Of a stretch of DNA of 64,000 bases, positions 15,626 to 16,404 are shown one piece after another; the first letter of the stretch is position 1, and every line of letters starts with the position of its first letter. The stretch comes from an uncultured Christensenella sp. (lineage in GTDB: Bacteria; Bacillota; Clostridia; Christensenellales; Pumilibacteraceae): NCBI GenBank assembly GCA_949948895.1, contig CATLHE010000001.1, positions 1-64,000 of the forward strand, given 5' to 3'. The position numbers and the translations under genes are program-made. The notes below the pieces were generated by a model. That model worked only from the letters and a program-made list of their open reading frames with translations. It did no database searches and was not told the origin of the DNA.

Positions 15626-15713
15626 GCCGGTGTGGTGGAATTGGCAGACGCGCCGGACTCAAAATCCGGTGGGCTAATCACCCGTGTCGGTTCGACTCCG
15701 ACCACCGGCACCA
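15626..15713 (+). tRNA. tRNA-Leu (anticodon CAA)
   Basis: 88 nt including the encoded CCA. The acceptor stem GCCGGTG pairs with CACCGGC. The anticodon loop CTCAAAA carries CAA, reading UUG. A long variable arm (GGTGGGCTAATCACCC) marks a class-II tRNA, and GGTTCGACTCC forms the T arm. The discriminator base is A. A terminator follows directly, and its last 19 nt are repeated three more times downstream. Confidence 0.97.
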
Positions 15714-16404
15714 AAAAGACGCGTGTAGCGTCTTTTTTTGTGCCGAATGCGAGGAGTCGATGCGCCAAAGGTAATCAATGTGTCATAGGTCGATCAAATA
15801 AATAGCAGTGCCGAGTAACTACGAATATGGACGGCGCAGGTTCGCTAGGCGCTTGGGCTTTAAGCCCAAAGCCCGCCGCGAATACGCGGCACTCCGACCA
15901 CCGGCACCAAAAAGACGCGTGTAGCGTCTTTTTTTGTGCCGAATGCGAGGATTTGATGCGCCAAAGGTAATCAATGTGTCATAGGTCGATCAAATAAATA
16001 GCAGTGCCGAGTAACTACGAATATGGACGGCGCAAGTTCGCTAGGCGCTTGGGCTTTAAGCCCAAAGCCCGCCGGGCACTCCGACCGCCGGCACCAAAAA
16101 GACGCGTTGAGCGTCTTTTTTTGTGCCGAATGCGAGGAGTCGATGCGCCAAAGGTAATCAATGTGTCATAGGTCGATCAAATAAATAGCAGTGCCGAGTA
16201 ACTACGAATATGGACAGCGCAAGTTCGCTAGGCGCTTGGGCTTTAAGCCCAAAGCCCGCCGCGAATACGCGGCACTCCGACCGCCGGCACCAAAAAGACG
16301 CGTTGAGCGTCTTTTTTTGTGCCGAATGCGAGGAGTCGATGCGCCAAAATCGATTAATGTGTCATCGATTAAATAAAATGCAGTGACAAATACGAAAGTG
16401 TCGG
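15695..16404 (+). repeat. Tandem array derived from the tRNA-Leu 3' end and its terminator
   Basis: The last 19 nt of the tRNA (ACTCCGACCACCGGCACCA, 15695-15713) recur at 15891, 16078 and 16274, the last two with one A-to-G change. Periods are 196, 187 and 196 bp. Each unit continues with the terminator hairpin, a conserved stretch of about 100 bp, a hairpin TTGGGCT/AGCCCAA (15853-15869 in unit 1) and GCCGCG-AATA-CGCGGC (15875-15890), which is reduced in unit 2 and explains the 9-bp shortening. The fourth unit is incomplete and decays after about 16348, ending beside the hydrolase stop. I find no convincing protein gene in it. It resembles repeated insertion of a small element at the tRNA 3' end, or tandem duplication. 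Confidence 0.93.
15713..15739 (+). terminator. Terminator of tRNA-Leu
   Basis: AAAAAGACGC pairs with GCGTCTTTTT around GTGTA, followed by T residues. The stem can extend outward because the tRNA 3' strand CGGCAC is complementary to GTGCCG at 15740-15745. Copies recur in each unit of the downstream array. Confidence 0.9.

Follow-up and report, generated by a model that had tools for sequence, protein, structure and literature searches.

The tRNA-linked repeats (TLRs) of Escherichia coli have been in print since 1978 and, in the sections of PMC8144298 drawn on here, are described as 22 units at ten loci with tails of 18–19 bp and no known function; in 2021 they were still described as lacking a known function, and a role was then proposed for the three that are linked to 5S rRNA genes. 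As far as those sections go, the report treats the TLRs of E. coli and places the 5S-linked ones in Enterobacteriales. Some TLRs are transcribed together with the tRNA and processed. In strain K-12, the unit at tyrT/tyrV is 178 bp long, its tail reproduces tRNA-Tyr from A58 to A76 and an antisense copy lies upstream; the Rfam family RtT (RF00391, rttR) lies after tyrT/tyrV, and matches to the RtT unit occur in 4,687 of 5,426 E. coli genomes, at 1–14 places each. Scanning 45 tRNA rows from 13 chosen K-12 loci, we found the tail in eight (Tyr, Lys, Arg and Pro), together with a similar E. coli core. The antisense copy outscored 200 of 200 shuffles in both Tyr rows, in Lys (mainly through the T-arm) and in Pro, and the four Arg rows were marginal in one case (4/200), not significant in two (62/200 and 107/200) and confounded by the next tRNA gene in the last. 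At lysV and proK the order is a hairpin with a T-run, the antisense segment, the core and then the tail. The repeats RrA, RrB and RrF follow 5S rRNA genes, with terminators T1 and T2 on either side in the case of rrnB; in our own search the rrnB repeat tail comprised 13 nt of the 5S gene and bases beyond it, and no antisense target copy was found in this repeat. A fixed ruler measured from the 3′ end of the mature RNA does not hold for E. coli 5S, whose copy extends beyond the gene. The stretch between the 5S gene and the second terminator of rrnB (L219) is itself a TLR.

Two other described systems share features with the element reported below. Casposons, in the part of PMC6614799 used here, insert at tRNA 3′ ends with target duplication, as our element would, and encode a Cas1-type integrase and carry terminal inverted repeats; by contrast, our element is too short to hold a gene, and by eye it shows no terminal inverted repeat. 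The Dada transposons of eukaryotes likewise target small-RNA genes (tRNA and snRNA), but they make 6–7-bp duplications and use a DDE transposase, according to the portion of PMC3706591 used here.

The arrangement examined here lies behind tRNA-Leu(CAA), the sole tRNA gene that ARAGORN finds in the window, by which we mean the whole stretch of 64,000 nucleotides of DNA that was analysed. The genus hosting the element appears to be Anaerocaecibacter, which NCBI places in Pumilibacteraceae, Clostridia. TRF reports a tandem array at 15695–16348 with a period of 196, 3.4 copies, 94% matches and a score of 1,175, which consists of three complete units (196, 187 and 196 bp) and a fourth, truncated one (Table 1). 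Every unit starts with positions 58–76 of the tRNA (ACTCCGACCACCGGCACCA), the repeat beginning at 15695, 15891, 16078 and 16274. The preliminary description of this DNA had stated that the final 19 nt of the tRNA recur three times at 196/187/196-bp spacing, and the three further copies are indeed found at these places; that at 15891 agrees with the tRNA end at 19 of 19 positions, and those at 16078 and 16274 agree at 18 of 19, with one A-to-G change each. It had also assigned each copy a terminator hairpin, which inspection bears out, and an element of about 150 bp, which is present in the first three units and not in the truncated fourth; there, the match to unit 1 is 86% over 16293–16385 and the core is absent. 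Identities between units are 184/196, 191/196 and 181/196 (92–97%), and adjacent units have variants in common. The point changes and the 9-bp hairpin loss reported earlier are both present, the latter falling in P4, the last hairpin of unit 2. Units of 187–196 bp are too small for an integrase gene and, in agreement with the earlier statement that no integrase is near, Pfam detected no recombinase in six flanking ORFs that were scanned, two of which had no match of any kind. Elsewhere in the window, positions 28–241 hold a 79-bp tandem repeat (2.7 copies) of an apparent ORF start (MSINGKRLVFIGPMGSGK...); because 79 is not a multiple of 3, the final copy is read in a different frame from those before it.

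Table 1. Features of the tRNA-Leu(CAA) array, in positions of the window.
Feature	Positions	Strand	Basis or remark
tRNA-Leu(CAA) gene, CCA encoded	15626..15713	+	ARAGORN; Rfam RF00005
First 19-nt repeat copy, tRNA 58–76 (T-loop A58 to CCA)	15695..15713	+	
Terminator-type hairpin with T-run, unit 1	15714..15739	+	terminator by inspection
Hairpin with T-run, further copies	15910–15935, 16097–16122, 16293–16318	+	by inspection
Interrupted reverse complement of own tRNA, unit 1	15740..15760	+	pairs in DNA fold
Antisense parts, unit 1	acceptor 15740–15745; T-stem 15753–15760	+	
Antisense segment, other units	from 15936, 16123, 16319	+	
P2 stem (15761–15766 with 15833–15838), A+T-rich loop inside, unit 1	15761..15838	+	
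Conserved core, unit 1, GGTTCGCTAG	15839..15890	+	covariance model match; covariation
Core hairpins, unit 1	P3 15852–15871; P4 15875–15890	+	
Unit 2, 187 bp: repeat 15891–15909, core, P4 9 bp shorter (16071–16077)	15891..16077	+	
Unit 3, 196 bp: repeat 16078–16096 (1 change), core	16078..16273	+	
Unit 4, truncated: repeat 16274–16292 (1 change), without core	16274..16404	+	
Unit 4 after the repeat: hairpin, antisense segment and left strand of P2, degenerate thereafter	to 16404	+	

Weaker pieces of the unit occur on other contigs of the same genome, and in relatives a stretch of about 60 nt recurs at many places, mostly 93–145 nt behind various tRNA genes. The preliminary description had proposed that a very small element is associated with the 3′ end of a tRNA gene; its recurrence behind other tRNA genes supports this, the search for the unit at such genes having been positive in the genomes of relatives. 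A covariance model (R1) was built from an alignment of 18 cores. The first core alignment was chosen by the motif GTTCG[CT]TAG, whose invariance there is by choice; the motif is still nearly invariant in a relaxed core set. R1 gave at least 145 matches in 17 of 20 congeners (E ≤ 0.01; 150 candidates scored per genome) and none in G001, G003 and G008, of which G001 is 96% complete. Across 74 genomes of the family, with stricter filters (E ≤ 1e-4), the same 17 congeners matched, joined by G028, whose single match was the only one among the 54 genomes of other genera. The exact core pattern was found in a species-representative collection on 30 contigs, mostly labelled Clostridiales or uncultured Clostridia bacterium, two of the 30 being labelled Roseburia sp. 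and one Anaerocaecibacter muris. The same pattern was absent from viral contigs, and blastn with one element as query gave nothing in phages or plasmids. No Rfam family matched the element at gathering or permissive thresholds.

The association with tRNA genes is close. In its own genome, which has 38 tRNA genes, 12 of 16 core matches follow a tRNA gene of the same strand at a distance of 1 kb or less, against about 1% expected by our own arithmetic; these 12 fall at eight tRNA loci. After removal of matches that stopped short of the model end, scored under 24 or duplicated a locus, 80 distinct copies were counted in the loci examined. A tRNA lies less than 210 nt upstream of 42 of them and 210–1,000 nt upstream of 10; a further 10 follow a tRNA cut by a contig edge, so that 62 of 80 are within 1 kb behind a whole or cut tRNA. 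The remaining 18 are behind none, and at least 14 of these still end in a tRNA-like tail by eye. Copies stand behind tRNAs of 12 amino acids.

The order of parts is tRNA, terminator-type hairpin, antisense of the tRNA's own 3′ end, P2 with an A+T-rich loop, core GGTTCGCTAG, P3, P4 and a copy of the tRNA's own end, the tail. The following counts refer to the 43 elements with a whole tRNA less than 210 nt upstream, elements without one being left out. The P2 stem has at least 4 bp in 37/43. Alignment of the tail to its own tRNA starts at position 58 in 31 elements, at position 60 in 11 (position 59 being changed) and elsewhere in one. The tail matches its own tRNA over a longer run than any other isotype in 38/43 (mean run 11.8 for the own tRNA versus 4.0 for other isotypes). 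A complete 19-nt tail (ignoring position 59) is kept in only seven, 28 end at 65–72 instead of 76, and most tails lack the CCA. The antisense segment forms a duplex with its own tRNA end at a mean of −22.4 kcal/mol, versus −14.1 kcal/mol with other isotypes, and the own tRNA is its top-ranked partner in 24/43; pairing between antisense and tail is weaker (mean −14.0 versus −11.5 kcal/mol for other tails). The antisense segment frequently prolongs the terminator palindrome into the tRNA. An exception is the G028 copy (L015), the tail of which is unlike its tRNA-Thr; no G028 tRNA with such an end was found, the pattern being absent from G028 with three mismatches allowed. A second terminator/antisense remnant behind the tail was rejected as a rule, the own tRNA coming first in only 9/43.

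The core shows strong covariation. Among 90 distinct copies, 98.0% of 1,076 cells are paired in an alignment that was fitted to the structure; both sides have changed in 217 of these cells, versus 76.5 in shuffles, and the covariation score is 0.522, against 0.169 for shuffles and at most 0.088 for slid partners. G–U pairs occupy 9 of 1,054 paired cells in the core, compared with 49 of 603 in the acceptor and T stems of 51 tRNAs of the same loci (Fisher p = 2e-14). We read this scarcity as selection on Watson–Crick pairing, which would be likelier for folded DNA than for RNA and is an indirect pointer to DNA. The P2 stems, unlike the core, contain 25 G–U among 347 pairs (7.2%), a tRNA-like rate obtained for pairs chosen by an RNA folding program that favours G–U, and this makes the DNA reading less secure. 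As single-stranded DNA, unit 1 folds into P1, P2 (with three additional pairs), P3 and P4 round one junction at −33.1 kcal/mol, versus −25.4 kcal/mol for shuffles, 1 in 200 of which was as good; the opposite strand gave z = −1.9 (9/200).

Some tails retain what appear to be the marks of insertion. In seven of the 43, 17 or more nt counted from position 60 are still identical, and the others are shorter or changed. Exact duplications with different DNA beyond each side are found in four of 43, measuring 19 bp at L009, 18 bp at L032, 19 bp at L054 and 19 bp at L089; exact short duplications are what staggered-cut insertion leaves. Those at L032 and L054 start at position 60 and take in 1–2 nt past the CCA, and at L009 and L054 another dispersed repeat comes next, so the outer flank may itself be inserted. 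At L001, L011 and L014 the repeat runs further into the unit, as in arrays, and likewise at E. coli proK. Occupancy is patchy between species. In the roughly 400-nt flank of tRNA-Leu the element is absent in 14 of the 14 congeners listed, two of which, G016 and G019, have a second element family there, whole or in part. Behind tRNA-Thr it is present at 5 of 11 loci listed, two more having the left part only, and it directly follows tRNA-Met at 7 of 11 loci listed. When downstream flanks were compared by BLAST across the loci examined, the matches listed included no clean case of an empty site that shares its downstream flank with an occupied one. By short BLAST matches, the best relative of a copy stands in another genome and behind a different tRNA type in 29/43, at the same tRNA type in 11/43 and at another tRNA of its own genome in 3/43.

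Repeated insertion at the window locus, as the preliminary description suggested, is not supported. Its units are 92–97% alike, neighbours share variants, and the best match of a window unit elsewhere, among 60 relatives, is 57 nt at 86%; the array therefore grew by tandem duplication. In A. muris (G017), which has arrays at tRNA-Met and tRNA-Pro, two later tRNA-Met units share one truncation that is absent from the first. Together with the likeness of the window units, this indicates that arrays grow by tandem duplication after insertion. Two candidate resident partners were also considered and rejected: a reverse transcriptase, its domain being found in only 3 of 20 congener genomes, and the Y1 transposase (PF01797) that IS200/IS605 or REP derivatives would call for, found in only 2 of 20.

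Other repeats occur in these genomes. The second element family, at tRNA-Leu and tRNA-Arg, has the same layout with another core (GGGCGTGAGCGTTAA...TTAGCGAACGC...) and a tail from about position 58; its sites are L146 (G016), L021 (G012), L124 (G015) and, in part, L130 (G019). At L009, L054, L073, L067 and L184, a third kind of dispersed repeat (AAAAGGCATATAAGGGCGC...GCCTTTT or a related sequence) lies near tRNA-Thr or tRNA-Pro ends or element tails. Where tRNA and element are separated or repeated, a motif like ATTCGTTTTAGGTTA..GCTC immediately precedes the CCA end (L069, L116, L122, L034 and L008) and may mark the right-hand boundary of a family of islands. Between tRNA-Ala and tRNA-Ile of G010 (L034, 1032–1250), a 76-bp tandem repeat of 2.9 copies carries a fragment of the tRNA-Ile 5′ end in its copies. 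Degenerate tRNA-Thr copies with terminator-like hairpins occur at L184 in G001, a well-assembled congener without the element.

Set beside the TLRs of E. coli, its closest known counterpart, the clostridial element similarly consists of short non-coding units, often tandem, that adjoin a tRNA gene on its downstream side, both in the window and in the 62 of 80 copies counted above. Tandem units number 1–5 per locus in E. coli, and three plus a stub in the window, with arrays elsewhere too. In the E. coli tRNA cases, the 18–19-bp tail likewise reproduces exactly the end of the gene before it, from position 58 or 59, and the Tyr, lysV and proK units also share the antisense copy of their own tRNA's 3′ region, which the Arg units show only partly. 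In RrA, RrB and RrF, too, a structured core precedes 18 bp copied from the end region of the gene upstream (PMC8144298, in the sections used), but their target is 5S and not a T-loop. The clostridial element differs from TLRs in its core sequence, in a terminator palindrome that often runs on directly from the tRNA, in tails that mostly lack CCA and in its dispersal over 12 amino-acid types in one genus. Rfam scans of the element and of the second family gave no match to RtT. Because Rfam does not recognise the element and no homology to RtT was seen, we call it TLR-like and not a member by sequence.

On balance, we consider it somewhat probable that the unit is a non-coding, non-autonomous folded insertion element of about 175 bp and of TLR type, tandemly amplified in the window. 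Its anatomy suggests that it has been mobile in the past. Staggered cutting at a tRNA gene's 3′ end would let such an element in and would duplicate 18–19 bp reaching from the T-loop as far as the CCA; the tRNA would be left intact, the element would supply the terminator, and the second copy of the 3′ end would form its right edge. The P1–P4 fold and the GTTCGCTAG joint, kept paired with few G–U pairs in the core, suggest that a partner recognised folded DNA, and this putative partner would act on a single-stranded or cruciform substrate. Ordinary target duplication leaves the antisense target copy inside the element unaccounted for. This segment may tie each copy to its tRNA, as an address or through fold-back copying. 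In the window, a single insertion followed by recombination between direct repeats would have produced the three units and the stub.

The same features could be read as those of a cis-encoded structured small RNA, an account we regard as rather unlikely, in which read-through past the first terminator and tRNA-type processing free a folded RNA. P1, formed by the antisense and the tail copy, would mimic the acceptor and T-stem of a tRNA; the antisense would pair with the tRNA or with the tail, and the tail would thus keep the tRNA from misfolding. Alternatively, the RNA would have a trans-acting role. Strong covariation and the tRNA-like G–U rate of P2 are consistent with such an RNA, as is the RNA fold of 15695–15910, which includes the tRNA end and terminator (z = −3.7, 1/200 shuffles); the fold of 15740–15910, without the terminator, is unremarkable (z = −1.8, 9/200) and speaks against it. 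From E. coli come an RtT RNA annotated with its 3′ end at the tail CCA, the pairing of antisense segment with tail in the Rfam RtT structure and, in the sections of PMC8144298 used here, read-through transcription and binding of Hfq and CsrA for the 5S-linked TLRs. However, the clostridial core is poor in G–U pairs, its antisense pairs only weakly with tails that mostly lack CCA, presence is patchy between species and no Rfam family matches.

Two accounts dispense with a mobile element of this size. It is improbable that the repeats are a mutational by-product, arising where tRNA-adjacent terminator hairpins provoke template switching and unequal crossing-over; the antisense segment, which matches its own tRNA and through which the terminator palindrome often reaches into that gene, fits this, and the window array resembles unequal exchange, but a homologous core behind many different tRNAs, genus-wide, goes unexplained, and for the core this account is largely refuted. 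Very improbable is that the units are scars of repeated integration by larger tRNA-targeted elements at integrase attachment sites. Islands between a tRNA and its element do occur: at tRNA-Ser(tga) (L068), about 10.7 kb with type I restriction genes separate the tRNA from a complete element with a Ser tail, and at tRNA-Val(cac) of G004 (L075), the tRNA and a core bearing a Val tail stand about 14 kb apart, with a serine-recombinase-like gene in the intervening DNA (translations read by eye in both cases). Yet the tRNA-Ser island splits the tRNA from an already complete element and its ends differ, and a conserved, covarying core, the same at 12 amino-acid types, is unlike scars.

A further reading is that the TLRs of two phyla form a single class of self-addressing mobile DNA, which we think quite unlikely. 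The antisense (TGG, acceptor and T-stem complement) would pair with the 3′ end of a stable-RNA gene or with its transcript and would direct insertion there, with an 18–19-bp duplication of that end. It would be rewritten for each new target, so that one core could spread to any tRNA. The antisense layout may be likened to a retroviral primer-binding site.

The occurrence of a TLR-like layout with an unrelated core in a genus of Clostridia opens to comparative study what had been a peculiarity of E. coli. A class of tiny elements that duplicate 18–19 bp may thus be hosted by the 3′ ends of tRNA genes, and in A. muris, which is available as an isolate, transcription, copy-number change and mobility are testable.
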